Shown piece by piece: positions 4,662-50,622 of a stretch of 64,000 bases of DNA (its first letter is position 1; each line of letters begins with the position of its first letter). This DNA comes from Aquipuribacter hungaricus. GTDB taxonomy: Bacteria > Actinomycetota > Actinomycetes > Actinomycetales > JBBAYJ01. The stretch spans positions 62,001 through 126,000 of the forward strand of contig NZ_JBBEOI010000002.1 in the NCBI RefSeq assembly GCF_037860755.1, read 5' to 3'. Under the pieces are notes generated by a model, which did not search any database, was not told where the DNA came from, and saw only the letters and a program-made list of their open reading frames with translations. The translations under genes and the position numbers were made by a program.

Positions 4662-5251
4662 GGGACCGCCCCGACGATCGTGGCGATCTCGAACGCGTTC
4701 TCCAGGTAGACCGGATCGAGCGTGAAGTACCGCACCTGCTGGTTGCTGTCGACCACGGCGTAGCCGACGCCGGGTCCGCCGTCGACCGGCGTGGGCAGGT
4801 CGACCGCGGCCGCGAGGCGCGCCTCGGGGTCGACGACGACCGGGGGTCCCAGGACGGCGGCGGCCTCCGGGTCCACGGGGCCGGGGACGACGAGGCGCAC
4901 CTCGGCGCCGGCGGGCACCTGCTCGACCCACCGCTCCAGGTCGGCGCCGTCAGGTAGGTCGCGGTCGAACAGCAGCACCACGGGCCGGCCCCCGAAGTCG
5001 ACGCCTGCCACCTCCGGGGCCACGGACGGCCCGGCCAGCAGGAGCCGGTTGCGCTGGTTGGCGGGGTCGGGCTGGTCCAGCGGTCCGGGTGGGCGGACCA
5101 GCAGGACGACGACGACGGTGAGGACGAGGGCGAGTGACAGGAACCACGCGGCCGGGGCCCACCGTGGCAGCGGCGGCCGAAGCCCCGGGACCCGGCCCCA
5201 GTCGTCGTCCACCACGTCCTGGCCGGTGGAGTGCAGTCGCGAAGACCTCAT
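4658..5251 (-). CDS. Single-pass membrane protein with thioredoxin-like extracytoplasmic domain
   Basis: 197 aa from ATG 5251, which overlaps the stop of the CsoR gene (ATGA). It has a basic/Pro N-terminus, one membrane segment (about residues 32-54, AWFLSLALVLTVVVVLLV) and a soluble domain. The strand pattern PVVLLFDRDLP, then GYAVVDSNQQVRYFTLDP, resembles the last half of thioredoxin/AhpC folds. No CxxC pair is present, so a redox role is unsupported; it could be a non-catalytic scaffold or metal-handling partner. Position between CsoR and the hydrolase ties it to the operon. Confidence 0.6.
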   Translation of the reverse strand: MRSSRLHSTGQDVVDDDWGRVPGLRPPLPRWAPAAWFLSLALVLTVVVVLLVRPPGPLDQPDPANQRNRLLLAGPSVAPEVAGVDFGGRPVVLLFDRDLPDGADLERWVEQVPAGAEVRLVVPGPVDPEAAAVLGPPVVVDPEARLAAAVDLPTPVDGGPGVGYAVVDSNQQVRYFTLDPVYLENAFEIATIVGAVP

Positions 5252-5676
5252 CGGTGCTTGAAGACCACGCGCATGAGCTCGTCGTAGATCAGCGGGTCGC
5301 CGCCGTTGATGGCGTCCGTCACGCACCGCTCGAGGTAGTTGCGGACCACGACCTTGCTGACCGCCTCCACGGCCGAGGTGACGGCGGACAGCTGCTGGAG
5401 CACGTCGACGCAGTACCGGTCGTCCTCGACCATCCGCGTGATGCCCGCGACCTGGCCGCTCACCTTCCGGAGCCGCAGCAGCACGTCGGCCCGGACCTGC
5501 TCGCTCATCATCGGTCGGCTGTCCGACTCGCAGGAGACCCCGGCCGCCGTTGTCTCGGTGTCGCGCGGGGCGTCACCGTTCCTGGCCGGGTCCGCCATGA
5601 CGTTTCCCGCCAGGTCCGGGCTCGCGCCTCCGGTTGCCGGGTGCACCGGCCCGGGGTCACCGGCCGACCGCGTCAC
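5248..5676 (-). CDS. CsoR/DUF156-family metal- or sulfur-responsive repressor
   Basis: 142 aa. Residues about 57-142 form the all-helical DUF156 fold (RLRKVSGQVAGITRMVEDDRYC). The two ligand cysteines are at 89 and 118, but the position four before Cys118, His in copper-sensing CsoR, is Tyr114 (RNYLERC). This makes a C-Y-C set rather than C-H-C. Such proteins repress efflux or sulfur operons until Cu(I) or persulfide binds. The first 56 residues are low-complexity; the GTG start at 5676 overlaps the upstream stop, but Met56/Met57 (5511/5508) are possible alternative starts. The likely target is the palindrome pair at 6401-6437. Confidence 0.88.
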   Translation of the reverse strand: MTRSAGDPGPVHPATGGASPDLAGNVMADPARNGDAPRDTETTAAGVSCESDSRPMMSEQVRADVLLRLRKVSGQVAGITRMVEDDRYCVDVLQQLSAVTSAVEAVSKVVVRNYLERCVTDAINGGDPLIYDELMRVVFKHR

Positions 5677-6371
5677 GTCGCGACCTTGGTGCCGCGGCGC
5701 AGGAGCAGGGCGACGGCGGGGTAGCCGGTGATGAAGCCAAGGACGATGCCGACCTGCATGAGGAACAGGAAGCTGACGCTGGTCACGGGGGGCATGTAGC
5801 CGCCAAAGTGCAGCAGGAGCATCCAGCCGCCCATGCCGAGGTCGAACGCCACGACCGTGACCACGGCCACCAGGAGGGCGGTGCCCAGACCGGCACCGGC
5901 GGAGGCCTCACGGGCCAGGTGCCCGCGCACCGCGAACTCGAACGCCAGAAGCATCAGGACCGCCAGGACCGCGATCACGGCGATCATCGCGAACATGTCG
6001 ACGCCGAACAGGCTGAGCCCCGTCGCGAGGACCAGGGGTACGCCGATGACGTGCCCGACCAGCGACGCGGCACCACCGGCGAGGCCGCCGGCCGCGGCGG
6101 CCAGCGGGAGGCCGGCCGCGTGAGCACCCGGGTGGGCGGCCTGCCAGCGGGTGCTGCGGCGGCGTCCGGTCACGGCGTACAGGGGCAGCACGAACGGTCC
6201 CAGCCAGAGCGCGCTCAGCACCCAGACCGCCTCCATGATCCGGACGGGCTGGCGGTGACCCCTGCCGTAGATGTCGTAGGCGACCGCAGCGGCGCAGAGC
6301 ACCGACAGCACGACGAAGACGATCGCCACTGGGGTGACCCATGAGGGCAGGATCTGCATGTCCATGTCCAC
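5673..6371 (-). CDS. DUF4396 multi-pass membrane protein, first gene of the copper-type operon
   Basis: 232 aa with about six hydrophobic segments and the motif MEAVWVLSALWLGPFVLPLY near residue 48, typical of DUF4396. The start is GTG 6371, chosen because AGGAG lies 8 nt upstream (6380-6384 on the plus strand); two in-frame ATGs follow at once. DUF4396 proteins co-occur with CsoR, DUF305 and copper transport genes, but no transport activity has been assigned. Its stop overlaps the CsoR start, so regulator and membrane protein are co-translated. Confidence 0.82.
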   Translation of the reverse strand: MDMDMQILPSWVTPVAIVFVVLSVLCAAAVAYDIYGRGHRQPVRIMEAVWVLSALWLGPFVLPLYAVTGRRRSTRWQAAHPGAHAAGLPLAAAAGGLAGGAASLVGHVIGVPLVLATGLSLFGVDMFAMIAVIAVLAVLMLLAFEFAVRGHLAREASAGAGLGTALLVAVVTVVAFDLGMGGWMLLLHFGGYMPPVTSVSFLFLMQVGIVLGFITGYPAVALLLRRGTKVAT

Positions 6372-6639: not shown

Positions 6640-7611
6640 ATGAACATGTTGGCCCGCCACCGCACACCCATCCGCGGCGGCCTTGCGCTGCTGCTGACGG
6701 TGCCGCTGCTCGGTGCCTGCGCTACCGGCGACGTGGAGGCGGGCGGGGTGGCGGTGAATGCCACCGCTCCAGCTCAGGTCGCGGGGGACGAGCACGACGG
6801 GATGTCGGCCATGCCGTCCCCCGCGACGGAGGCGGGGGCGGGGGCGGGGGACGGCTACACCGCTGTCGGCCTGCCGAGCACCCACGTGCACGGCGTCGCG
6901 CTCAACCCGGCCGATGGTCGGGTGTACCTGGCCAGCCATGACGGGCTGTTCCGCTACGACGCCGGCGGGCCCGTGCGGGTCGGTCCTGTCATCGACCTGA
7001 TGGGCTTCACCGTGGCCGGGCCCGACCGCTTCTACGCCTCTGGCCATCCCGGCCCGGGCGTCGACCTCCCGCAGCCCGTGGGACTCATCGAGTCCGTCGA
7101 CGGCGGCGACACCTGGGCCGTCCGTTCCCGCGGCGGGGAGTCCGACTTCCACACACTGGCCGCGACCGGCGACGGCGTGCTCGGCTTCGACGGAGCCCTG
7201 CGCCAGAGCACGGACGACCAGACCTGGGAGATCCTTGACCCACCGGTCGACCCCTACGCCGTCGCCGTGTCCCCCGACGGCACCCAGATCCTCATCACCA
7301 GCCGGTCGGGGCCGCGCCGCTCCACCGACGGCGGGCAGACGTGGGAGGCCATCGATACCGCACCCCTGCTGCAGGTCGTGGACTGGGCCGATGAGCAGAC
7401 GGTGGTCGGTGTCACCCCGACGGGCTCGGTCGCGGTCAGCGAGGACGCCGGCGCTACCTGGTCCACCCGCGCCGAGACCGAAAGCGCGCCTCAGGCGGTC
7501 GGCGCCCACACCACGGCCGACGGTCGACTCGGGGTCCTCGTCGTCACCGCCGACACCGTGCTGGAGTCCTCAGACGCAGCGCAGACGTTCGCGCCGCTCG
7601 CCCCGAGCTGA
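6640..7611 (+). CDS. F510_1955-type beta-propeller lipoprotein, second copy
   Basis: 323 aa. Signal peptide with lipobox LLGAC at about residues 23-27, a Met/His-containing linker (DEHDGMSAMPS), then HVHGVALNP and Asp-box motifs (ESVDGGDTW, STDGGQTW, SEDAGATW). It is paralogous to the protein at 1110-1994 but transcribed the opposite way. GAGAGGG precedes ATG 6640; a second ATG lies two codons in. It is divergent from the CsoR operon and shares the 6372-6639 intergenic region, so it may be under the same metal control. Confidence 0.85.
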   Translation: MNMLARHRTPIRGGLALLLTVPLLGACATGDVEAGGVAVNATAPAQVAGDEHDGMSAMPSPATEAGAGAGDGYTAVGLPSTHVHGVALNPADGRVYLASHDGLFRYDAGGPVRVGPVIDLMGFTVAGPDRFYASGHPGPGVDLPQPVGLIESVDGGDTWAVRSRGGESDFHTLAATGDGVLGFDGALRQSTDDQTWEILDPPVDPYAVAVSPDGTQILITSRSGPRRSTDGGQTWEAIDTAPLLQVVDWADEQTVVGVTPTGSVAVSEDAGATWSTRAETESAPQAVGAHTTADGRLGVLVVTADTVLESSDAAQTFAPLAPS

Positions 7612-7667
7612 CGCCGGGCGACTGCGGTGAGACCTGGTCGAGCCGGTCCGGCCGGGTCAGGACGACG

Positions 7668-7712
7668 TCGACCGACAGCGGTGAGACCGCTATCATCGTC
7701 CGATGCCGATGA
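7668..7712 (+). promoter_or_regulatory. Leaderless promoter and candidate operator of the cmtR-like gene
   Basis: TCGACC (7668-7673) and TATCAT (7691-7696) are spaced 17 bp, and TATCAT lies 6 nt before the ATG at 7703. This spacing predicts a leaderless transcript. An inverted pair TCATCG (7693-7698) and CGATGA (7707-7712) straddles the start codon and is a plausible autoregulatory site. The motifs are visible; their use is inferred. Confidence 0.45.
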
Positions 7713-8077
7713 AAACTGCCGCGGGGCCGCTCGACGTCGAGGTGGCCGAGGCAGCTGCCCTCGAGACCGCAGCCAGCCTGTTCCGGGGCCTGGGAGACCC
7801 TGCGCGGCTGGCGATCCTGCGCCATCTGTCGCTCGGCGAGCATCGCGTGGTGGAGCTGACCGAGCACCTGGGGTTGGCCCAGTCCACGGTGTCCGGGCAT
7901 CTGGCCTGCCTGCGCGGCTGCGGCCTCGTGACATCGCGGGCGGTGGGACGGGCCTCGTTGTACTCCCTCGCTCAGGTCGAGCTCATGGACCTGTTCGCCG
8001 CCGCGGAGAAGGTCCTCGCCGCGACCGGGGACGCCGTCTTGCTGTGCCCGACGTACGGCCCGGGAGCCGACACGTGA
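7703..8077 (+). CDS. cmtR: ArsR-family Cd/Pb sensor, CmtR-like
   Basis: 124-aa winged-helix repressor. The recognition helix region reads GLAQSTVSGHLACLRGCGLV, placing Cys69 and Cys73 in the C-x3-C arrangement that binds Cd(II)/Pb(II) in mycobacterial CmtR. A third cysteine, Cys115 in the C-terminal tail (LLCPTYG), matches the third CmtR ligand. It should dissociate from DNA on metal binding. It is followed after 7 bp by a cation transporter that it probably regulates. Confidence 0.88.
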   Translation: MPMKTAAGPLDVEVAEAAALETAASLFRGLGDPARLAILRHLSLGEHRVVELTEHLGLAQSTVSGHLACLRGCGLVTSRAVGRASLYSLAQVELMDLFAAAEKVLAATGDAVLLCPTYGPGADT

Positions 8078-8084
8078 GCGGCAC

Positions 8085-8879
8085 GTGAGCGGCGCCAAGG
8101 TCGTCCCCCGGACGCTGACGGCGCAGCGCCGCTCGGTGCTGGGACGTCGCGCACAGCTGATCGCCGGGGCGTCGGTGACGTACAACGTCGTCGAGGCCGT
8201 CGTCGCCATCTCCGCGGGCGTGGCGGCGAGCTCGATCGCGCTCATCGGGTTCGGGATGGACTCGATCGTCGAGGTGTTCTCCGGCCTGGTGATCCTGTGG
8301 CAGTTCCGGCACAAGGTCCCCCAGGCCCGGGAACGGCAGGCACTACGCCTGATCGCGCTGTCGTTCTTCGGCCTCGCCGCCTACGTCAGCGTCGAGTCGG
8401 TGCGCGCCCTCGTCGGCCAGGCCGATGTCGGGACGTCGCCGGTCGGTATCGGACTGGCAGTCGCCTCGTTGCTCGTGATGCCGTTCCTGTCCTGGGCGCA
8501 GCGGCGCACCGGCCGCCAGCTCGGTTCCGGGTCCGTGGTCGCCGACGGGACGCAGACCTTGCTGTGCACCTACCTGTCCGCGGTGCTGCTGCTCGGGCTG
8601 GTTCTCAACGCCACGCTCGGCTGGTCATGGGCCGACCCGGTCGTCGGCCTCGTCATCGCCGCCGTCGCGGTCAAGGAGGGCCTGGAGGCCTGGCGCGGGG
8701 ACAACTGCTGCGCCCCGCCGCCCTCGGCAGGCAGCCGCGCCGGAGTGGACAGCGAGGACGGATGTTCCACCGGCTGCTCGCCCGGGTGCACCTCGGCGTG
8801 CTGCGTGAGCCCCGGCGCCACGCAGGACACGGTCGCCCGGGGAACCGCTGGGGCCGAGGCCGGCGGAGCGCGACGGTGA
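8085..8879 (+). CDS. Cation diffusion facilitator-like transporter with Cys-rich tail
   Basis: 264 aa, GTG start 8085; the 11-bp sequence CACGTGAGCGG occurs twice around the start. About six hydrophobic segments, with the CDF-type motif ALIGFGMDSIVE near residue 52 in place of HxxxD and VADGTQTLLCT in TM5. The C-terminal tail after residue 205 has seven cysteines (DNCC ... GCSTGCSPGC ... ACC), a probable soft-metal binding region absent from most CDF proteins. It sits between a CmtR-like sensor and a CzcD-like exporter, so Cd/Pb/Zn efflux is the likely job. Confidence 0.82.
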   Translation: MSGAKVVPRTLTAQRRSVLGRRAQLIAGASVTYNVVEAVVAISAGVAASSIALIGFGMDSIVEVFSGLVILWQFRHKVPQARERQALRLIALSFFGLAAYVSVESVRALVGQADVGTSPVGIGLAVASLLVMPFLSWAQRRTGRQLGSGSVVADGTQTLLCTYLSAVLLLGLVLNATLGWSWADPVVGLVIAAVAVKEGLEAWRGDNCCAPPPSAGSRAGVDSEDGCSTGCSPGCTSACCVSPGATQDTVARGTAGAEAGGARR

Positions 8880-9814
8880 GCGGCGCGCACTCCCACAGCC
8901 ACGGCCTACCGTCGGCCGCCGCCGGCCCGGCGTCGGCCCGGCACCGGCGCCGGATGCTGCTGGTCCTCGGCATCACGCTGTCCGTGGTGGGTGTGCAGGT
9001 CGTCGGCGGGCTGCTGTCCGGGTCGCTGGCGCTGCTCGCGGACGCCGGGCACATGCTGACCGACGCCGCCGGGGTCGGGATCGCCCTGCTCGCCAGCCAC
9101 ATCGCGATGCGGCCCCCCACGGACGCCCGCAGCTACGGCTGGCAGCGCGCGGAGATCCTCGCCGCCCTCGCCAACGCCCTGCTCCTGGCCGGCATCGCGG
9201 TCTGGGTGCTCGTCCAGGCCGCCGGCCGGTGGGAGGACCCGCCGGAGGTGTCCACCGGCATCATGCTCGCCGCCGCGGTGGTGGGCGCGGTCGCCAACGG
9301 GGCGTCCCTGCTGCTCCTGCGGGGTGGTCAGGCGGAGAGCCTCAACGTCCGCGGTGCCTACCTGGAGGTCCTGGGGGACCTGCTCGGCTCCCTCGCGGTC
9401 ATCGTCGCCGGCGTCGTCATCGTCCTCACGGGGTACGCCCGCGCCGACGTCATCGCCTCCGTCGTCATCGGCCTGATGATCCTGCCGCGGGCGTGGTCGC
9501 TGCTGCGCGACGTCCTCGACGTCCTGCTCGAGGCGACCCCAAGGGGCGTGGACATGGACGAGGTCCGTGCCCACATCCTTGAGGTCCCCGGCGTGGAAGA
9601 CGTCCACGACCTGCACGCCTGGACCATCACCAGCGGAGTCCCGGTCCTGTCCGCCCACGTCGTCGTCGACGACGACTGCCTGGCCCGTGGGCGTTCCGGT
9701 GAGGTTCTCGACCAGCTCGGCGCCTGCCTCACCGGGCACTTCGACGTCGACCACTGCACCTTCCAGCTCGAGCCCGTCGGGCACCGCGAGCACGAGCCGG
9801 CCCACCACCGCTGA
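8876..9814 (+). CDS. czcD: CzcD/ZnT-type zinc/cadmium/cobalt exporter
   Basis: 312 aa from GTG 8876, overlapping the previous stop (GTGA). His-rich N-terminus (GAHSHSHG), six membrane segments, TM2 motif [10 protein letters not shown] (His/Asp site A) and TM5 motif [11 protein letters not shown] (Glu/Asp, as in CzcD rather than His/Asp). The cytoplasmic domain carries [14 protein letters not shown], the usual CDF dimer/regulatory domain, and ends [10 protein letters not shown]. It uses proton antiport to export divalent metals from the cytoplasm. Confidence 0.93.
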
Positions 9815-9870
9815 CGGGTCGGCGCCGCCCGTCCCTGGCCCTGGAGCGAGATGGTGCCAGGCTTGCCGGC

Positions 9871-10209
9871 ATGAACGACGTGGTGCGGTCCCTCGTCCTC
9901 TTCGCCCTCGCCGCCCTCGCGGAGATCGGCGGCGCCTGGTTGGTGTGGCAGGGGGTCCGTGAGCACCGTGGGTGGGTCTGGGTCGGGGCCGGCGTGATCG
10001 CGCTGGGGCTGTACGGCTTCGTGGCCACCCTGCAGCCGGACGCCAACTTCGGGCGCATCCTGGCCGCGTACGGCGGCGTCTTCGTCGCCGGCTCCCTCGC
10101 CTGGGGGATGGTCGTCGACGGGTTCCGTCCCGACAGGTACGACGTGACGGGCGCACTGGTGTGCCTCGTCGGCGTGGCGGTCATCATGTACAGCCCACGC
10201 CCCGCCTGA
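9871..10209 (+). CDS. YnfA/UPF0060 family small membrane protein
   Basis: 112 aa, four hydrophobic helices, with the family motifs [24 protein letters not shown] and [15 protein letters not shown]0060 proteins resemble SMR-type small multidrug transporters; the substrate is not established. It follows the CDF genes after 56 bp and ends close to the convergent arsenic genes. Confidence 0.9.
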
Positions 10210-10298
10210 CCCACGTGGACCCGACGCCGTGGCGCGACGGTCTTGACGCGACGGTGTCGACGTGACGGCTGCTACCCGCCGGGCCGCGGCCGGAGGGA

Positions 10299-10943
10299 CT
10301 ATGTCCTGGCAGGCACAGCGAGCTCGTCCAGCAGTGCCCGTACCCGGCGCTCGATCTCGTCGCGCACGGGCCGGACCGCGTCGACGCTCTTGCCCGCGGG
10401 GTCCTCGAGGACCCATTCCTCGTACCGCTTGCCGGGGAAGATGGGGCAGGCGTCGCCGCAGCCCATGCTGATGACGACGTCGGCGGCGCGGACGGTCTCG
10501 TCGGTCCAGGGCTTGGGGAACTCGGCGGAGATGTCGATGCCGCGCTCGGCCATGGCCGCGACGGCGGCGGCGTTCACACGCTCGCCGGGCTCGGACCCGC
10601 CGGACCAGGCGACGGCGCGGTCCCCGGCGAGGTGCTGGAAGAAGCCCATGGCCATCTGGGAGCGGCCGGCGTTGTGGACGCAGAGGAACAGCACGGTGGG
10701 CAGGCCGTCGTCGTGGTGGCCCTCGACCTTGGCCAGCGCGCGCAGTCGCTGCCGCGCGAACCGCTCGGCCATGAGCGGGAGGAACCGGGTGATGGTGGCG
10801 CGGCCGGCGAACTGGTCGTAGCTGGTGACGAGGAACCGGTCGACGGTCTTCTCGTTGAACGTGCCTGCGAACTCCTTCGTGAGGTTGCTCGCAGCGATGC
10901 GGAGGGAGAGGCGTTGCGAGGTGTCGAGCTGGGTGTCGGTCAT
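10299..10943 (-). CDS. arsC: Arsenate reductase, low-MW phosphatase type with N-terminal helical domain
   Basis: 214 aa. Residues about 1-75 are a helical domain (ASNLTKEFAGTFNEKTVDRF) found in actinobacterial ArsC proteins. From about 80 comes the LMW-PTP fold with the P-loop CVHNAGRS, the segment VISMGCGDACPIFPGKRYEEW with the Cys pair used in redox relay, and the LEDPAG aspartate region. It reduces arsenate to arsenite. ATG start at 10943, 1 nt after the stop of the ArsR fusion. No arsenite exporter is in the window. Confidence 0.92.
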   Translation of the reverse strand: MTDTQLDTSQRLSLRIAASNLTKEFAGTFNEKTVDRFLVTSYDQFAGRATITRFLPLMAERFARQRLRALAKVEGHHDDGLPTVLFLCVHNAGRSQMAMGFFQHLAGDRAVAWSGGSEPGERVNAAAVAAMAERGIDISAEFPKPWTDETVRAADVVISMGCGDACPIFPGKRYEEWVLEDPAGKSVDAVRPVRDEIERRVRALLDELAVPART

Positions 10944-10944
10944 C

Positions 10945-11634
10945 TCAGGACTCCTGCGTGTCGGTGAGGGCGTGCCCGAGCCGGTCGGCGCGGACGAGGA
11001 TCTGGGCGAGGGCCGCGTCGAAGGCGGCATCGGTCCCGGTGCGCACGGGATCCGGCACGGACCAGTGGACCGCCGTACGGTCCAAACCGAGCGAGGTCTC
11101 GTAGGCGTTGTCGCACACCGCCACGACGAGGTCGTCGGGGCGAAGGACGTCGGCCACGTGGGCGGTGGGGTGCCCGGATAGGTCAAGGCCGTGGCGCCCT
11201 GCGGAGTCCACCGCTCCCGGGTGGACGGACGAGGCCGGGGCGGTGCCGGCCGAGGCGGCGGGTATGCCGCTGGCGCGCTCGAACGCTGCCCGGGCAAGGT
11301 GCGAACGCGCGGAGTTGTGGGTGCAGACGAACACGACCCGGGGCGCCCCCGGCATCATCGGCCGGCTCCCCACCACCTCGAGAACAGCGGGATCACCCAG
11401 CTCGAGGGCGACGTACGTGCGCCGTCGATCCCCCTCGGAGCGCGACCGTCGGACGACGCCAGCGGCCTGCAGGACCTTGAGGTGATGAGCGAGCAGGTTC
11501 GAAGCCATGCCGAGGCGACCAGACAGCTCACCGGGGGACAGGTCCCCGACGCCCAGAGCGTCGACGATCTCGACCCGGACGACGTCCCCGAGAGCGGCAT
11601 GAAGCTCTGCACGCCGAGTTGCCTGCACTGTCAC
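10945..11634 (-). CDS. ArsR-type HTH fused to LMW phosphatase/arsenate reductase-like domain
   Basis: About 229 aa. The N-terminal winged helix (ELSGRLGMASNLLAHHLKVLQAAGVV) lacks the usual Cys pair in the DNA-binding helix. The C-terminal LMW-PTP domain carries CTHNSARS and the aspartate loop PDPV. This sensor-enzyme fusion is known near actinobacterial ars genes. I chose GTG 11634 because it falls at the predicted start of a leaderless transcript; GTG 11628 is also possible. An open frame extends to 11715 but runs through the promoter. Confidence 0.85.
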   Translation of the reverse strand: MTVQATRRAELHAALGDVVRVEIVDALGVGDLSPGELSGRLGMASNLLAHHLKVLQAAGVVRRSRSEGDRRRTYVALELGDPAVLEVVGSRPMMPGAPRVVFVCTHNSARSHLARAAFERASGIPAASAGTAPASSVHPGAVDSAGRHGLDLSGHPTAHVADVLRPDDLVVAVCDNAYETSLGLDRTAVHWSVPDPVRTGTDAAFDAALAQILVRADRLGHALTDTQES

Positions 11635-11641
11635 GAGAGCC

Positions 11642-11677
11642 AGGCAATCAGTCAGTGAACATTGAGTCAAGTCTGAT
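11642..11677 (-). promoter_or_regulatory. Candidate ars promoter/operator
   Basis: On the minus strand a -35-like TTGACT (plus positions 11665-11670) is followed 17 bp later by TTGCCT (11642-11647), about 7 nt before GTG 11634. A weak inverted repeat ATCAG (11647-11651) / CTGAT (11673-11677) spans it and could be the ArsR site. The -10 is poor, so this is tentative. Confidence 0.35.
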
Positions 11678-11723
11678 GGAGCAATAGTTCGGCTCGACGG
11701 CACAGACCCCGCCAATCCGCCTT

Positions 11724-42570: not shown

Positions 42571-45500
42571 TCAGCGCCGCGGCGCTGGGGACGCCGAGGG
42601 CGAGGACACGGCCCGCGACGTCTCCGCGGCCGCCTCTGGGTCGGTCCGGTGCCTGACGGTGGGTTCGGTCGCAGGCATCGGCAGGTCGAGGTGGGCGACC
42701 AGCCGGTACCGGAGTTCCTGGGCGGGGCGGTCGCCGAGCGGCGCGGCCTGCACGACCTGCCGGGTGGCGGCCGGGACGTCGTGACCCTGGTCGCTGGCGG
42801 CCTGCATGAGGTGGGCCAGGGCAGGCCAGTCGTCCTGGGTGACGAGCCGGGGGTCGAGGGTCGCGGCCACCTCGTGCCAGCGTTCCGCCGGCGCCCCAAC
42901 CAAGGGTGTAGTTGTCCCCAGGGCTGCCGGGGATCCGTGCGTCCCCGTCCGGGTGGCGGTCTGCAGCCGCTCCCGAACAGCCCGGACGTCCTGCAGGGCC
43001 GTGTCTGTGGCGCGCCGGGGGTCGGCGTTCCACGCCCTGACGTGCTCGAGGAGCTGCTGGTCGACCTCGGCGCGGCCGAGGTCCAGCCGACGCGACACCT
43101 CGACGGCGGTGGCAGGCCACTCGTGTGGCGGTCGGGCGGCCGCCACGGCCATCGCCTCACCGACGGCCTGGCCGGGGGGCAGGTTCCTCAGCCGTTCCTC
43201 GAGGAGCACCTCACCGAGCGGACGGGCCTGGCTGAGGGTCTGCCTTAGCGCCGCAGGGCCGCGGGTCGTGTATAGGGAGGCGGGGTCGGTGCCGTCGGGC
43301 AGCTCGACCACGGCGGGGTCAAGGCCGTGCAGGGCCAAGGTCCAGTAGGCACGCTCGGCGGCCATCCGGCCAGGGAGGTCCGCGTCGGTGGCCACCACGG
43401 GACGGACGGCCAGCGGGCCGCTCACCGGGTCAACATGGGTGGCGATCTGAGTGGTGATCTGGGCGGCGAGCTGGGCGGCCTGCTGGTCGGTCAGCGCGGT
43501 CCCCAGCGGCGCGACACCGACGTGGCTGCCTCTGGTGGCGAGGGTGACGGCGATCGCGTCCATCGGTCCTTCGACGATGACCGGGACGGCTCCGCCGCGC
43601 AGGAGGTCCTCGCCGGCGACGTACAGCTGGGCACCCTTGACGAACGCCAGGGTGGTGGCGGTGTTGAGGTACTTCGGTCCACGCTGTTCGGTGTCGGTGA
43701 CGTGCGGATGACGGCGGCCGATGAACCCGAGGACCTCGCCGTGGTGGGTGATGGGCAGCACGGCCCGGTCGCGGAAGCGGTCGATGAGCCGGCCGGTGGT
43801 GGCTGTGGTGGCGACGCCCGCGGCCAGCATCTCCTCGTCCGTGACGCCGAGGTGTCCCAGGTGGCTCACCAGCCCGTTCCAGCCGCGGGGTGCGTAGCCG
43901 GGCCGGGCGGCAGGGCCCTCGACAGGGTCGTCGGCAGGGTCGTCGACGAGGTCGTGCCCGAACCGTTCCAGCAGGTGTGCTTGTGCCCACGAGCCGCGGT
44001 ACTGGCTCTGGAACCAGTCCAGGGCGAGCTGGTTGACCTGCACCACCCGCTCGCGGGAGACCGGGGCGGTCTCGAGCTCGTAGGCCCGCTGCAGCTGCCG
44101 CTCGACGTCGCCGGCGCTGGGCTCTGGCGCACCGAGCACGTCCCGCAGCCGGGCCTGTACCGCGAGGTCGGCCGTTACGGCGGCCGCATGGTCGTGCAGG
44201 TCCAGCGCGGCTGGGGCGTCGGGGACGTCTGTGCGGTCGACCGGGTTGGGCACGGCAGCGGGCGATGCGGGGTGGCCGGAGACCCCGAAGTCCCCCCGCA
44301 CTGACAAGGCGTGCAGCAGGTCGTCGTGGGGGGCGATGTGCGCCGGCTCCACGCTTATGGGGGGCCCGTCGCCGGCGCGGACCGGGAGGTCGGGGTCGAC
44401 GCCGTCCCACAGGTCTGTCGGGGGCGGGTTCTCGGAGACGTCGGGGTGCTGGCTGGTGCCGGGGGCGGTGCTCGGGTCGGTGAGGACGGAGGCCCGCCAC
44501 ACCATCGCCAGGCACATCTCCTCGGCCGGCACCGCCGCGGAACTAGCTTCGGACGCGGCCGTGGGCGTGCCGACGGCGGCCAGGCCGGGTGGGGTGGCGG
44601 CGCTGAGCAGGGCGTCGACCTGCCAGCCGCGCTGCAGGCCGTGCTCGACCACGGCCACCAACGCCGGCCACAAGGTGCTGGCCTGCACAGCCTCGGCGCC
44701 GTGGCGTCCGAGCACTTGAGCGACGCGGTCCGCCCATGGCACGGGGAGCGGCTGGCCGCTGACGTCAGGGGCGGGGGGCCGGTGGTCGGGGGCGACGGCC
44801 AGGGCAACAGCGGGGGAGACGTGCCGGCTGATCCGCCACCACAGGGCGGCCGCGGCGTGGTCGTCGGGCAGCGGAGCGACCCGGGCGGCGTCCACCAGCA
44901 GGGGGCGGGCGTCGATCCCGGCGCGCGACAGCGCGGCGAGACGTCCAGCCAGGACAGGGGTGAACGCGTCGGCGGCGACGGCTGGCGCGGTGAGGCGCAG
45001 CAGCTCACCCCACTCGGCCATGGCGGGCGTGCGGCCGCTGTCGAGGTGTTCCTGCAGGGTGCGCTGCCAGGTGCGGGCCGCCTTCTGCAGCTGTGGCGGG
45101 CCGGTGGGGCGGCGGTCTCCCGGCTCGACCTGCATCGCAGCCCGCCACACCTCGACGTCGGCGACGACGTCTGCCGGCGGCCTCGGACCGGCCTGCTCCA
45201 GCCACCCCGGCACGCCTGACGCGTCGCCGACGCTCGCGCGTACCTGCGCCGCCAAGTCCACGACCAGGTCGGCGCGGTCCTTCAGGTAGGTGCCCCAGAT
45301 GCGGTCCTGGGCGAGCTGCGTGGGGACGCCGGGCAGCCATGGCAGCGGCCCGGGGCCGCTGCTGCGGGACCCGGAGGCGTCCAGGCGCCAGTCGAGGACC
45401 GCGGCGGCGTCTGCTGCCCCGTCCAGGGGCCGGATCTCCGCGGCGCGGTGCAGGGCGTCGACGGGGTCGGTGCCGGCCGCGGCGAGCAGCATGAGGTGGG

Positions 45501-48500
45501 CGCGCAGGACGGGCCATGCGGGGGAGGTCGGCAGGCCGTCGACGACGCCCGCGACGTCGGTGGCTGCGGTGTCGATCCGGCGGGCCACGTCGGGGCCGAG
45601 GACGTGCTGCGCGGCGGCGTGCAGCGCGTCGACGTAGCGGACCGTGGCCTGGCCGAGCAGGACGGCTGGGGCGGCATGCTCACGCTGCAGCGTGCTCGCC
45701 GACGTCGGGGCGCCGTCGCGGGCGAGGATGGCTTCGAGCTCCTCGGTCGCGCTCAGCGGACGTACTACCTCGGGGCGGACCACGCTGTGGGGGTCGCCGT
45801 CGCCGACCACCTCCAGGTACACGTGGTTCGCCATCCGGCCGCGGGTGAGCATCGTGTACAGCTGCTGGCGGGACAGCTGGGACTGCTGCCCGCCCTGCTG
45901 GCCTCCCACGAGGCCGTGGATGGTGTCCACAGAGACGCCCTGCGCGGTGTGGACGGTCGTGGCGTAGCCGAGCTCGACGGAGGCTCGCACGTAGGAGGCC
46001 GGCAGCTGCACGCTGCGCCCGCTGCCTAGGTGCCGGGCGATGATCGCGCCGTCGTCGTGGACGGCGGTCAGGGTCCACCGGTCACCGTTCTTCACCCAGT
46101 CCGTCGACGTCGTCCGCAGCGACCGGTCGTTCGTCCGGGTGATGAGCAGGTCCCCGGCGCTGGCCTCGAGCCCGTCCGCCAGCCGCACCACCACCACCAC
46201 CGCCGCTGCGGGCGTCCCCGACGTCAACTCGTTGCCGACGGTGCTGGTGCTGTCCTCGGCGGCGGTGCTGAGGCGGTGGGCACGGGCGCGTTGGTTGAGG
46301 TCGGCGACCAGGTCGTGGGTGGGCGCCAGCATGATGGAGTCCAGGCCGGCGGCGCGGTCGTCCCGCCAGGCCTGGAAGACCTCGTCGGTCATGGTGGTGA
46401 GGTCCCCGACGTGGACCCGGTCCTGGTCGAGGTAGAAGCCGAGCGCCTCCGCGCGGCCCTCGCGCAGCGCGAGCGTGGCTGCGCCCTCGGCGGGGTCGCG
46501 GAAGCGCAGGAGCTCACTGAGGTGGACTGCGCCGTGGGTCGCCGCGATGTCGCGCAGGACACCGCCGGCGCCGATCGCGGCGAGCTGCTGGTCGTCGCCG
46601 ACGAGCCGGACGCTGCCGCCGCGCTCGATGACGAACGCCGCCGCGGTCGCCAGCGACATCGTGTCCGCCATCCCGGCCTCGTCGATCACCACCAGGGTCG
46701 TGGCGTCGATCCGTCGCACCCACTCCGGCAGGGGTCCTGGTGACCCATGCGCCTCCTGGTTCAGGGACCACGTCAGCTTGGCCAGGGTCTCGGTCTGGGT
46801 GCCGGTCTGCTCCCGCAGCGCGGCCGCGGCGGCCGCCGAGGGGGCCAGCCCCACGACGTGCCCGCCGCCCTCGGTCCATGCCGCCGCCAGCGCCGACATG
46901 GCGGTGGTCTTGCCCGACCCGGCCGGTGCGACCGCCAGCTGGAGCCGGGCACCGGAGGTGGCCATCTGACGCACCAGCGCGACCTGGCCGGCGTTCAGGA
47001 CCCTCCCGTTGGCCGTGGCCTCCAACAGCGCCACGTCCACGGCACGGTCGTCGACGACCCGCCCGTCGAGTCTGCCGGCGAGCCCCACCATCTGCTGCTC
47101 GGCAGCGAGGACGGCGGCGGAGGTGAACAGGTCGGCGCCGGCGACCCGGTACACACTGCTGTCGTCGGCCCGACGCAGCTGCCCCGGCTCGGTCAGCGCA
47201 CGCCCCCGCACGTCGCGCTCGGCCACGGCCAGGGACACCGAACGCCGCTTCAGGACCTCCTCGACCAGGGCGTCCACCGCCCGTCCGCTCACCTCTGCTC
47301 CGGCGCCGGCGCTGCGGACCTGCCGTTGCGCCTCTGCCCGGACGTGCCAGACCTGCCACGTAGAGCGACGCTCCTGCATCGCCGTGAGCGTCCGTCCCGC
47401 AGCTCCCGACAGCCACGCCGGGCTGGCGACGTCGAGCCCGCGATGCTGTGCCGACGGGCGACGCGTCGAGGGGTCGAGGACTCCCCGGAGCATCCGCTGG
47501 ACCTGCTGGGCGCCGCCCAGGACGTGCTCGGCCTGCGCCTGCCACGCGGCGCGCTGCTCGGCCAGGGTGCGTGGTTCGTGCTTGGCGTCCCGGGTTTCCA
47601 AGGTGGCCTGCTGGGCCAGCTGCAGCGCCTCGACCGGGGTAGGCGGGCGACCGTGCTGACGCTGGAACCGGGTGGCGAGCTCGCCCTGACGCACCTCGAT
47701 GCTCGCCCGCCGCGCCGACCACCGCTGCAGCAGGACCGGCTCGAACCCGACGACCTCCCGCACCGGACGCTTCTGCGCCTCAGCCCGGCTGCTCGCCCGG
47801 TCGTCAGCGCGGAAGTCGAACTGCACGCCGAGGTCGTCACGCAGCCGGGTCTCCAGCGCCGTGTTGTAGGTCTCCGAGGCGGTGACGACCGCCTTGAACA
47901 GGATCCGGCCGTCGATCGCCAACCACCGGCCGCCCTCGACCCCGGCACCGTCCGGGGCGCCGTCAGGGGCGCCGTCAGGGGCCTCGCTGCCGACCGGCCC
48001 GACGGTCTGGACCTTGTTGGCGATCGCGACGTGGGTGTGCAGGTCGGGGTCCCCGGCACGGCTGTCGCGGTGGGTGAACGCGGTCCCGACCAGGCCCCGC
48101 ACGTCGACCTGACGCACGCCGTTGGTCCCGGTCCGGGTGTACAGGGCGTGGGTCTCGATGAACCGCAGCGCGTCGGCGACCGCGCCCTGGTGTGCTCGCT
48201 CGATCCGGGCGGCGATGTCCGGCGGGGCGATCGCCCAGAGGGCGCTGACGGACTTCACCGGGGAGAAGGTGAGGTCGTAACCGGCCACCGCGGTCGTCTT
48301 CGACCGTGAGTGCCGCGCGATCGCCCCGGCCAGCTCACGGGCGTCCAACGGCTGCCGGCCGTGCTCGGCGAGGAAGAACTCCCGACCCACCTCGGTGCGC
48401 ACCCGCGCCCGTTCCTCGGCCGGGACCGGCCAGTCCCCTGGCAGCCCAGCGTCGGTGCTGATAGCCGCGATGCGCTTGGCGACCTCGAGGCGGAACGGGC

Positions 48501-48870
48501 TCACGTCGCCGGTGAACACCTTGTACGGCGCCCCGAGCCGGGTCACGGCCTGCCGGTCCCGCACGCTCAGCCCCCCGGGCCGACCTGGCTGGTCCGGGTT
48601 GGCCGCCTCCAGCGCGGCCAGCCTCTGCGCGGCGAGCGGGTGGTGCCCGGAGCCGAACAGGGCCTGCATCTGCTCGGCGGTCACGACGTCTCCCACGGCG
48701 AGCCCATCGATCCCGGTCATACCGGAACCCACCCACTGCCCTGGGGTCTCACCGCGGTCGGTGTAGTAGCTGGCCAGCCCGGTATGGCCCTTCTCGGTGG
48801 CGTCCATGGCCGCGACCTGACGGGTCAGGTAGTCGTACCCCGACCCCGCCGTCAGCTTGTGGACGCTCAT
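42571..48870 (-). CDS. MobF relaxase-helicase with C-terminal TOPRIM/primase-like domain
   Basis: 2099 aa from ATG 48870 (GGGGGTCG upstream). The relaxase domain starts SVHKLTAGSGYDYLTRQV, with Tyr candidates, and holds the metal-binding triad THRDSRAGDPDLHTH (about 265-280). The helicase Walker A APAGSGKTTAM is near residue 650, with VVIDEAGMAD after it. The C-terminal third has a primase-like core (RDRAVLPITHHGEVLGFIGRR) and TOPRIM motifs VIVEGPMDAIAV (Glu about 1768) and VVATDADLPGRMAAERA (about 1830). It nicks at oriT, unwinds, and may prime the complementary strand. A 12-bp repeat near 47950 adds APDG units. Confidence 0.92.
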   Translation of the reverse strand: MSVHKLTAGSGYDYLTRQVAAMDATEKGHTGLASYYTDRGETPGQWVGSGMTGIDGLAVGDVVTAEQMQALFGSGHHPLAAQRLAALEAANPDQPGRPGGLSVRDRQAVTRLGAPYKVFTGDVSPFRLEVAKRIAAISTDAGLPGDWPVPAEERARVRTEVGREFFLAEHGRQPLDARELAGAIARHSRSKTTAVAGYDLTFSPVKSVSALWAIAPPDIAARIERAHQGAVADALRFIETHALYTRTGTNGVRQVDVRGLVGTAFTHRDSRAGDPDLHTHVAIANKVQTVGPVGSEAPDGAPDGAPDGAGVEGGRWLAIDGRILFKAVVTASETYNTALETRLRDDLGVQFDFRADDRASSRAEAQKRPVREVVGFEPVLLQRWSARRASIEVRQGELATRFQRQHGRPPTPVEALQLAQQATLETRDAKHEPRTLAEQRAAWQAQAEHVLGGAQQVQRMLRGVLDPSTRRPSAQHRGLDVASPAWLSGAAGRTLTAMQERRSTWQVWHVRAEAQRQVRSAGAGAEVSGRAVDALVEEVLKRRSVSLAVAERDVRGRALTEPGQLRRADDSSVYRVAGADLFTSAAVLAAEQQMVGLAGRLDGRVVDDRAVDVALLEATANGRVLNAGQVALVRQMATSGARLQLAVAPAGSGKTTAMSALAAAWTEGGGHVVGLAPSAAAAAALREQTGTQTETLAKLTWSLNQEAHGSPGPLPEWVRRIDATTLVVIDEAGMADTMSLATAAAFVIERGGSVRLVGDDQQLAAIGAGGVLRDIAATHGAVHLSELLRFRDPAEGAATLALREGRAEALGFYLDQDRVHVGDLTTMTDEVFQAWRDDRAAGLDSIMLAPTHDLVADLNQRARAHRLSTAAEDSTSTVGNELTSGTPAAAVVVVVRLADGLEASAGDLLITRTNDRSLRTTSTDWVKNGDRWTLTAVHDDGAIIARHLGSGRSVQLPASYVRASVELGYATTVHTAQGVSVDTIHGLVGGQQGGQQSQLSRQQLYTMLTRGRMANHVYLEVVGDGDPHSVVRPEVVRPLSATEELEAILARDGAPTSASTLQREHAAPAVLLGQATVRYVDALHAAAQHVLGPDVARRIDTAATDVAGVVDGLPTSPAWPVLRAHLMLLAAAGTDPVDALHRAAEIRPLDGAADAAAVLDWRLDASGSRSSGPGPLPWLPGVPTQLAQDRIWGTYLKDRADLVVDLAAQVRASVGDASGVPGWLEQAGPRPPADVVADVEVWRAAMQVEPGDRRPTGPPQLQKAARTWQRTLQEHLDSGRTPAMAEWGELLRLTAPAVAADAFTPVLAGRLAALSRAGIDARPLLVDAARVAPLPDDHAAAALWWRISRHVSPAVALAVAPDHRPPAPDVSGQPLPVPWADRVAQVLGRHGAEAVQASTLWPALVAVVEHGLQRGWQVDALLSAATPPGLAAVGTPTAASEASSAAVPAEEMCLAMVWRASVLTDPSTAPGTSQHPDVSENPPPTDLWDGVDPDLPVRAGDGPPISVEPAHIAPHDDLLHALSVRGDFGVSGHPASPAAVPNPVDRTDVPDAPAALDLHDHAAAVTADLAVQARLRDVLGAPEPSAGDVERQLQRAYELETAPVSRERVVQVNQLALDWFQSQYRGSWAQAHLLERFGHDLVDDPADDPVEGPAARPGYAPRGWNGLVSHLGHLGVTDEEMLAAGVATTATTGRLIDRFRDRAVLPITHHGEVLGFIGRRHPHVTDTEQRGPKYLNTATTLAFVKGAQLYVAGEDLLRGGAVPVIVEGPMDAIAVTLATRGSHVGVAPLGTALTDQQAAQLAAQITTQIATHVDPVSGPLAVRPVVATDADLPGRMAAERAYWTLALHGLDPAVVELPDGTDPASLYTTRGPAALRQTLSQARPLGEVLLEERLRNLPPGQAVGEAMAVAAARPPHEWPATAVEVSRRLDLGRAEVDQQLLEHVRAWNADPRRATDTALQDVRAVRERLQTATRTGTHGSPAALGTTTPLVGAPAERWHEVAATLDPRLVTQDDWPALAHLMQAASDQGHDVPAATRQVVQAAPLGDRPAQELRYRLVAHLDLPMPATEPTVRHRTDPEAAAETSRAVSSPSASPAPRR

Positions 48871-49172
48871 CACGACCCCCACACGGCAACGGAACGCCGT
48901 CGGCGGTCAGCAGGGGACGCCCGGACGTCGCACCGGAAATGCAAGAGGTGTGTGGCACATGGATCTCGTCGCGCTGGAGGGGGGACGAAGGGGCGCTGAG
49001 ACGGTCGGCTTGCGCGGAGCTCTGCGTCGGGTCAGGGTCCGCGGTCCGCGTAGGTCAGATCGGCGGTGGTGAACGGGATCGGGTGGAGGTGACCGCCGGG
49101 GGAGTGGCTAGGTACCTGTGGGGGAGTCGGAGTCCGTAGGCGAACCACACTGGAGTGAGCAGGTGAGCAGGC
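48871..49172. other. Non-coding region upstream of the relaxase (candidate oriT side)
   Basis: 302 bp with no credible gene; lower coding bias. It contains the first copy of a 42-bp direct repeat (49058-49099). Because MobF nic sites usually lie near the relaxase start and next to inverted repeats, this region and the 49185-49590 repeats are the best candidates for the transfer origin. No nic consensus could be identified by eye. Confidence 0.4.
49058..49099 (+). repeat. 42-bp direct repeat, copy 1
   Basis: It begins AGATCGGCGG and ends GTGACCGCCG, matching 49549-49590 at 40 of 42 positions. It lies 74 bp before the small gene's start. The spacing to copy 2 is 491 bp. Confidence 0.9.
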
Positions 49173-49628
49173 GTGAATGAGCAGGCAGTGAGGTCGACGG
49201 GTCGGCAGTCGGTGCGGCAGGCGGCGCGAAGGGCGGTGCTGGACGCGCAGTCCGCGCGGCGACGTGAGCGCGCCGAGCGCGAGCAACGTGTCGAGGCGTT
49301 GGTGGTCGAGGTGCTAGTGGCGGTCCGGGAGCGGGACGCAGCCATCGCGTCCGCCGAGGCTCGGGCCGGCGCCGCTTTGGACCGGATTGTTCAGCAGGAG
49401 CGCCTCACCGTCCGCGAGGTCGTCGACTGGTGCGCCGACGGGGCCTTGAGCACTCGAGAGGTCGCACGGCTCCGGGCCGTCGCGGCCCGAGCAGCCGGGT
49501 CCGTCGCGCCGCCTGCCGCACCAACTGCCGACCCGTCGACTTCACTGCAGATAGGCGGTGGTGAACGGGGTCGGGTGGAGGTGACCGCCGACGTTGTGCG
49601 CCCGCCCTCCGCTGGCTACAGCTCCTGA
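49173..49628 (+). CDS. Small charged protein next to the relaxase, possible relaxosome accessory
   Basis: 151 aa. The core (residues about 25-110) is a charged helix with RERAEREQRVEALVVEVLVA and then LTVREVVDWCADGALSTREVARLR, which looks like a helix-turn-helix-like end. Proteins of this size and composition often sit divergently beside MobF relaxases in actinobacteria. The N-terminal codons and the C-terminal third coincide with the inverted repeats at 49185-49229 and 49504-49548 and with direct-repeat copy 2, so the C-terminus may be an addition caused by rearrangement. Confidence 0.6.
   Translation: MNEQAVRSTGRQSVRQAARRAVLDAQSARRRERAEREQRVEALVVEVLVAVRERDAAIASAEARAGAALDRIVQQERLTVREVVDWCADGALSTREVARLRAVAARAAGSVAPPAAPTADPSTSLQIGGGERGRVEVTADVVRPPSAGYSS
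49185..49229 (+). repeat. 45-bp inverted repeat, left arm
   Basis: GCAGTGAGGTCGACGGGTCG at the outer end, continuing to GGCGGCGCGA. It is the reverse complement of 49504-49548 with two mismatches and lies in the first codons of the small gene. Confidence 0.92.
49504..49548 (-). repeat. 45-bp inverted repeat, right arm
   Basis: Reverse-complement partner of 49185-49229 (43 of 45 matches). The outer end abuts direct-repeat copy 2 without a gap. The interior between arms is 274 bp. Confidence 0.92.
49549..49590 (+). repeat. 42-bp direct repeat, copy 2
   Basis: It begins AGATAGGCGG and ends GTGACCGCCG; two mismatches to copy 1 at 49058-49099. It falls in the C-terminal codons of the small protein, where it encodes a low-complexity segment (IGGGERGRVEVTA). 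Confidence 0.9.
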
Positions 49629-49878
49629 GCGGCCGGAGAAGGGGCGGCGCCGGTCTCATCTTCGGGCGGGGCGGCTTGTTCGCAGCGGCGTCGTGCTGCC
49701 CGGTGACGCCGGCGTCGCAGGACAACGGCTGGCGGACCTGGCTACCTCGTCCCGCAGATGATCGTCAAGCGGCGAAGCGCTGTGAGCGGGGCCCGTCCTT
49801 TCGTTGCGGGCTGCACCGGGGGCCGGCATCGGCCGGCGCAGGGCGGACGAGCTGACCGCCCGGACCTACGATCGCCGC
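49629..49878. promoter_or_regulatory. Intergenic region with leaderless -10 at its right end
   Basis: No gene seen. A GC hairpin-like GCCGGCATCGGCCGGC is present around 49823-49838. TACGAT at 49867-49872 lies 6 nt before ATG 49879, giving a probable leaderless promoter. No convincing -35. Confidence 0.4.
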
Positions 49879-50454
49879 ATGGTGCGGTTCGTGGCGCTGT
49901 CGCGCCCCGAGGCCGCGGCTTACCTCGAGCGGTTCCTGGGGGAGACCCCTCAGGCCCTGGCCCGGACCGTGGAGCTCGCTGCCAGCCTCGACGGACCGCG
50001 ACCAGGGATCTTCGACCTGAGCGCTGCGTCGCTGGACCCGCTCTGGGGCTGGGCTGCGCCCCTGCTGTCCTGGCGCGACGGGTACACGCCGCCGGCGCCA
50101 GGGGAGCCGGGGGGCCGTGTCCCCCTCGACGTCCTGGAACCCGAGGACGAGCTACCGAGCTGGTTCGACCCGGTCGTGCCCGGGTGGGCGCGGTGGTCAG
50201 CAGAGTCCCTCTCGCTGATCGACGGCCTCGCTCGCTACCTCGGTGAGACGCTCGTCAGGGAGGTCCCCACGGCCCGGTGGGTAGCCGGGCATGCCCGGGC
50301 GCGGGGGTACATGTACCAGAACCATCCCGTCGTGACCGGGCTACCCGTCGACGACAGCGAGCCCATGGCTTCCGTCGCCGTCATCGCCTCACGGGTGCTC
50401 CTCCCGACCCCCGGGCCCAGGACGCTGGGGGACCTGTTCCACACCTGGACCTGA
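49879..50454 (+). CDS. Hypothetical protein
   Basis: 191 aa from ATG 49879; an upstream in-frame ATG at 49804 is less likely because of the leaderless -10 at 49867-49872. Soluble, acidic, Pro/Trp-rich (LDPLWGWAAPLLSWRDGY; PSWFDPVVPGWARW). It looks like a full-length globular protein, but I recognise no family. It stands alone between the relaxase region and convergent epimerase gene. Confidence 0.68.
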   Translation: MVRFVALSRPEAAAYLERFLGETPQALARTVELAASLDGPRPGIFDLSAASLDPLWGWAAPLLSWRDGYTPPAPGEPGGRVPLDVLEPEDELPSWFDPVVPGWARWSAESLSLIDGLARYLGETLVREVPTARWVAGHARARGYMYQNHPVVTGLPVDDSEPMASVAVIASRVLLPTPGPRTLGDLFHTWT

Positions 50455-50622
50455 CGGGCTGGCTGCGGCCCGCGTCGACTGCACCTCGGTCCGTCCCGAC
50501 AGCCGACCCCTGTCCGGCGGCGAGAGCTCTCGCGCGGGACCGGCCGCAGGCCTCCGGCGTCCGTCATACAGAGGATCGGTTGTCGGGACGCGCTGGGCGG
50601 TAAGGCTGACCCGGCACCTGGA

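Follow-up and report, generated by a model that had tools for sequence, protein, structure and literature searches.

A probable local templated insertion and a separate oriT candidate beside a MobF relaxase gene of Aquipuribacter hungaricus

The window analyzed here is a stretch of 64,000 nucleotides of Aquipuribacter hungaricus DNA (contig NZ_JBBEOI010000002.1, positions 62,001 to 126,000). It carries a long gene for a MobF relaxase, a divergently oriented small gene and, between and within them, a pair of direct repeats (DR1 and DR2) and a pair of inverted repeats (IR1 and IR2). The genome, 4.3 Mb in 547 contigs, also harbors a second MobF element; the contig containing the window is referred to below as C2 and that containing the second element as C3. 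The features of the locus are as follows.

42571..48867, minus strand: MobF (TrwC/TraI-type) relaxase-helicase gene with a C-terminal primase-like (DnaG/Toprim) region, start at 48867
48930..48963, plus strand: nic-like block, the best oriT candidate, with core AATGCAAGAGGTGTGTGGCAC at 48938-48958 and a predicted nick at 48951/48952
48979..48987, plus strand: GGGGGGACG motif, about 30 nt right of the nic-like block, a possible accessory binding site
49056..49098, plus strand: DR1, source copy of the direct repeat, intergenic, its last ~10 nt in a stretch aligning in place with C3
49173..49628, plus strand: small gene of 151 aa, divergent from mobF, with conserved residues ~8-105 and a variable tail after ~105, of no named family
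49185..49232, plus strand: IR1, source copy of the inverted repeat, forming the conserved coding start of the small gene (47/48 against the C3 gene start)
49488..49500, no strand: breakpoint zone, where collinear C3 homology ends (blastn, C2 versus C3), the left junction of the proposed insert
49501..49548, minus strand: IR2, derived inverted copy of IR1 (45/48), translated in the tail of the small gene
49548..49590, plus strand: DR2, derived direct copy of DR1 (41/43), contiguous with IR2

The relaxase neighbor named in an earlier note on this DNA is confirmed by Pfam domains TrwC (2.9e-79), AAA_30 (3.5e-57) and Toprim_2 (1.2e-9), with curated cut-offs exceeded for TrwC (267 bits, cut-off 25) and the NCBIfam MobF model (212 bits, cut-off 100). 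Its relatives in the PDB are TraI and TrwC, and the HUH motif region aligns to both solved structures; comparison of the relaxase alignment with viral contigs revealed no relative.

For wider comparison, we used 80 related mobF loci from other named genomes, mainly Nocardioides, Knoellia, Humibacillus, Flexivirga and propionibacteria. Homologues of the small gene were detected by tblastn in 60 of the 80, nearly all at most 1 kb upstream of mobF, and profile searches of Pfam, NCBIfam and PHROGs returned no hit for it. Conservation is confined to residues ~8-105, and neither the tail in the window nor that on C3 was matched among the related loci. The insert discussed below starts at the end of this core, around residue ~105. 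The tail of the C3 gene (L010:7500-7735) consists of a short tandem repeat of GAGGACACGGGAGCC units, another sign of a freely evolving C-terminus.

Both repeat pairs reported in the earlier note are real, and its 42-bp direct and 45-bp inverted repeats are slightly trimmed versions of those described here. The direct pair (49056-49098 and 49548-49590) spans 43 nt with 41 identical positions, and the inverted pair (49185-49232 and 49501-49548) spans 48 nt, of which 45 are complementary. In BLAST self-comparison their best scores were 69.8 bits (direct) and 74.3 bits (inverted), far above the maxima of 40.1 and 41.0 bits, respectively, obtained from 60 dinucleotide shuffles of 48001-50500. DR2 abuts IR2, as already observed in that note, and base 49548 is common to both. 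The statement that the repeats enclose a small gene is too simple. IR1 is the coding start of this gene, and translation of IR2 and DR2 yields its C-terminal tail; both inverted arms lie inside 49173-49628, DR2 extends over the last codons of the gene, and the frame stays open. Likewise, the remark that the repeats are not explained by the genes applies to DR1, the only intergenic copy, but not to IR1. Folding of the single strand, which had been proposed as a check, shows that the long inverted repeat folds strongly (z -5.6), and given this fold an effect of the inverted repeat on transfer or expression is possible. A dispersed or mobile repeat element, which had also been considered, would require many copies and was rejected: with up to three mismatches allowed, the 4.3-Mb genome contains exactly two copies of the direct repeat, and the inverted repeat is represented there only by its two arms and the C3 gene start. 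The direct-repeat pattern had no exact match among viral contigs.

An internal reference is provided by the sister element on C3, which is collinear with window positions 11757-49488 at ~80-88% identity and has the same divergent layout of mobF and small gene. Homology between C2 and C3 ends in blastn at window position 49488 (C3 position 7733), leaving about 12 nt to the start of IR2. C3 has a single homologue of IR1, which coincides with the gene start and matches IR1 at 47 of 48 positions, whereas DR1 is represented there by no more than its last ~10 nt, aligned in place. Both IR2 and DR2 are absent from the homologous place, which is occupied by a different small-gene tail. When IR1, IR2 and the C3 sequence are compared as a star, they carry 1, 2 and 0 private changes, respectively, indicating that the copying took place after the split of C2 and C3 and is not brand new. 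A weak extra resemblance between IR2 and the C3 tail could mean that an imperfect inverted repeat already existed and was only corrected toward a better match; such a quasipalindrome-correction origin of IR2 was set aside, as the resemblance reaches only an uncorrected p of about 0.01 in 1000 shuffles.

Beyond this genome, the nested arrangement of direct and inverted copies was found in none of the 80 related loci, and where the IR1 sequence could be aligned in relatives (L080, L081 and L090) it forms a single gene start. A blastn search of 48871-49660 against plasmids gave no match, comparison of the region with 395 genomes of the class yielded, outside its own genome, only short chance-level matches, and a search for a close relative without the insert found none. 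Two of the related loci, L095 and L099, carry inverted repeats of 37-60 nt flanking the nic block at about -230..-171 and -64..-5 from the relaxase start, an arrangement different from that in the window. In L061 (Allobranchiibius), a 283-nt tandem direct duplication, 93% identical, lies upstream of mobF, with its copies at about -1223..-941 and -938..-656 from the relaxase start.

Taken together, we consider it quite probable that a single local rearrangement, a templated (template-switch) insertion, gave rise to the nested repeats, and that the oriT is a separate feature at 48938-48958. The left copies are the sources, because C3 retains a single IR1 homologue and the end of DR1, the nested pair is missing from the 80 loci, and the genome has just two copies of the direct repeat; on these grounds the polarity of the inverted repeat is clear, and that of the direct repeat is well supported. 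IR2 and DR2 together constitute one contiguous derived compound insert of ~90 nt where the small gene is variable, at its 3' end. As to mechanism, the template would have been switched twice during DNA synthesis or end repair at about 49490-49500: the gene start (49232 to 49185) would first have been copied in the inverted sense, and the intergenic segment 49056 to 49098 would then have been copied in the direct sense and joined to the sequence at 49591. The small gene would thereby keep its conserved core and an open frame while gaining a new tail of 46 residues, and the fact that the frame remains open indicates that the change of tail was tolerated. A templated insertion is recognized by copies of nearby segments whose sources remain in place, and here both IR1 and the right end of DR1 are ancestral by comparison with C3. 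The junction at 49548, the only one readable on both sides, shows one shared base.

Compound templated insertions and short-range template switches are known from apes, yeast and E. coli quasipalindromes (PMC7954356, PMC8604942, PMC7202029). The present case resembles template-switch mutations in that short nearby segments were copied in inverted and direct sense and lie contiguously at one breakpoint, including within coding sequence. It differs from the described cases in its setting, an actinobacterial conjugative element, in the distance of the two sources (270-490 nt), in the single shared base at the readable junction and in that no precursor was observed. The best reading of the repeats is that they are a copying scar specific to this lineage.

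The strongest alternative, which is possible although we give it rather less than an even chance, holds that the insert marks the right end or a deletion junction of an integrated element, whose integrase side was lost from C2 and which was joined to other chromosomal DNA. The earlier note had raised an element end or a recombined origin, an idea borne out to the extent that C3 homology stops at 49488, some 12 bases before the derived copies. Furthermore, on the small-gene side of C3 a tyrosine integrase gene (4767-5891) adjoins tRNA-Phe, whereas no integrase of that type is present on C2; and the right-flank genes are not linked to mobF and include one resembling a protein O-mannosyltransferase, whose orthologues in congeners are ~75% identical. 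However, synteny around the mannosyltransferase gene is not conserved in the two congeners, so that no empty site could be defined; the serine-recombinase genes of C2, located far to the left, may allow a different mode of integration that does not require truncation; and most relatives, too, have something other than a C3-type integrase gene beside the small gene. A search for a tRNA att site in the window and the adjacent C2 contig found none. Homologues of the right-flank 216-aa gene have no mobF, small gene or epimerase nearby. Sequence 3' of DR2 is unrelated to both the right flank of DR1 and C3, and the right junction at 49591 may lead either into chromosomal DNA, if the integrase side was lost, or into the element's own diverged tail. 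An element end can be compatible with the templated insertion, adding a reason why the insert sits where it does. On the left, window positions 6640-11715 contain genes whose ORF translations resemble metal-handling proteins (cation-diffusion transporters and ArsR/ArsC-like proteins), apparently near or within the element.

The transfer origin is probably the conserved block at 48938-48958, between the relaxase gene and the small gene, where the core reads AATGCAAGAGGTGT^GTGGCAC with the predicted nick marked. The motif AGGTGTGTG was found within 200 nt upstream of mobF on the expected strand in 54 of the 80 loci and on the opposite strand in none, compared with three matches in 126 kb of control sequence. 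The identical 21-mer core recurs on the C3 element and on Rhodococcus plasmid pN30, and alignment of 65 sequences, including both loci of this genome, gave the consensus acCGrgAATGCAagAGGTGTGTgg.actTgg followed by a GGGGG run; conservation of a short F-like nic core upstream of cognate relaxase genes is observed for this block. In C3 and in most Nocardioides-type loci, the GGGGGGACG motif lies at a comparable distance from the block. A MobF oriT is expected to carry an inverted repeat bound by the relaxase immediately left of nic; around the predicted nick, the single strand folds no better than shuffled sequence (z 0.09), with no significant hairpin detected. The F-type nic of pSU233 is GTGGGGTGT|GG (PMC7755788); like that oriT, the block lies upstream of a TrwC/TraI-type relaxase gene and has the core GGTGT^G, whereas TGCAAGA replaces the F-type left side and no clear hairpin is present left of the predicted nick. 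If the relaxase nicks after 48951, as predicted by analogy with the F-type nic, the small-gene side would enter the recipient first and mobF last. Conjugative elements usually deliver the relaxase gene last. Two related MobF conjugative elements with near-identical nic blocks (C3, L010-L013; window 11757-49488) coexist in this genome, and cross-recognition by their relaxases is likely.

The same block and layout are present on the circular Nocardioides plasmid pCHL, and variants that match at 14-16 of 19 positions are situated 40-106 nt upstream of mobF on plasmids of Rhodococcus and Mycobacterium. In Rhodococcus pN30 (NZ_AF312210.1; L142:2995-3030), 26 nt of the block are identical to pCHL, and a second Rhodococcus plasmid (NZ_CP034155.1; L144:3997-4030) carries a closely similar copy. 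Both small plasmids are classed as non-mobilizable in PLSDB, and no relaxase gene is annotated in the stretches of them that were compared. Judged from sequence, these copies on otherwise unrelated small plasmids are possible oriT mimics. Such mimics have been described on relaxase-less staphylococcal plasmids (PMC8136818), which the Rhodococcus plasmids resemble in that 26 nt of the nic block beside the Nocardioides mobF are copied on them; they differ in being actinobacterial and MobF-type.

The oriT reading of the earlier note was therefore well placed in part, as a candidate does lie within the segment proposed for cloning (48871-49630), beside the MobF relaxase gene; it falls outside the interval that had been marked, and the repeats are not that oriT. 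The idea that the nested repeats themselves are functional oriT parts serving as relaxosome binding sites appears improbable. OriTs often carry direct and inverted repeats, the present ones lie beside mobF at 100-640 nt from the nic block, and the inverted pair would form a very stable single-strand stem. Nevertheless, the proposed search of relatives and plasmids recovered the nic-like block, including on plasmids, and the nested repeats neither on C3 nor in any of the 80 loci, although the block is conserved there. In addition, half of the nested structure lies within the coding tail of the small gene, and neither repeat contains AGGTGTGTG, whose sole copy in the window is at 48946.

An assembly artefact of the draft genome is very unlikely: short repeats near a relaxase gene present twice in the genome might invite one, yet there are 2-3 differences between the copies, ordinary reads are longer than either repeat, and both lie in the middle of a 136-kb contig with the reading frame open. 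An invertible switch, in which recombination between the two 48-nt arms within one gene would flip 49233-49500, can practically be dismissed and was rejected as a site-specific invertible segment, given that no recombinase gene lies near the arms, relatives have only one arm, and inversion would fuse the gene start to a short dead-end opposite-strand frame of about 45 residues with no conserved counterpart.

Returning to the templated insertion, we regard it as a long shot that the insert arose while the replacement strand was synthesized in conjugation, through template switching on the single-stranded DNA of the leading region, an idea suggested by its position ~550-640 nt downstream of the predicted nick, on the strand predicted to be the first to reach recipients. 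If true, it would point to a mutational process linked to transfer, by which genes of the leading region have their variable tails remodeled.

Read as a templated insertion, the repeats offer a small, clean example of a compound event of this kind in a bacterial gene. Separating them from the nic-like block prevents a mis-annotated oriT and puts a testable candidate in its place, a compact block common to MobF elements and plasmids of Nocardioidaceae, Intrasporangiaceae, Propionibacteriaceae, Rhodococcus and Mycobacterium. If this block is the true nic, small Rhodococcus plasmids could travel with any compatible MobF helper.
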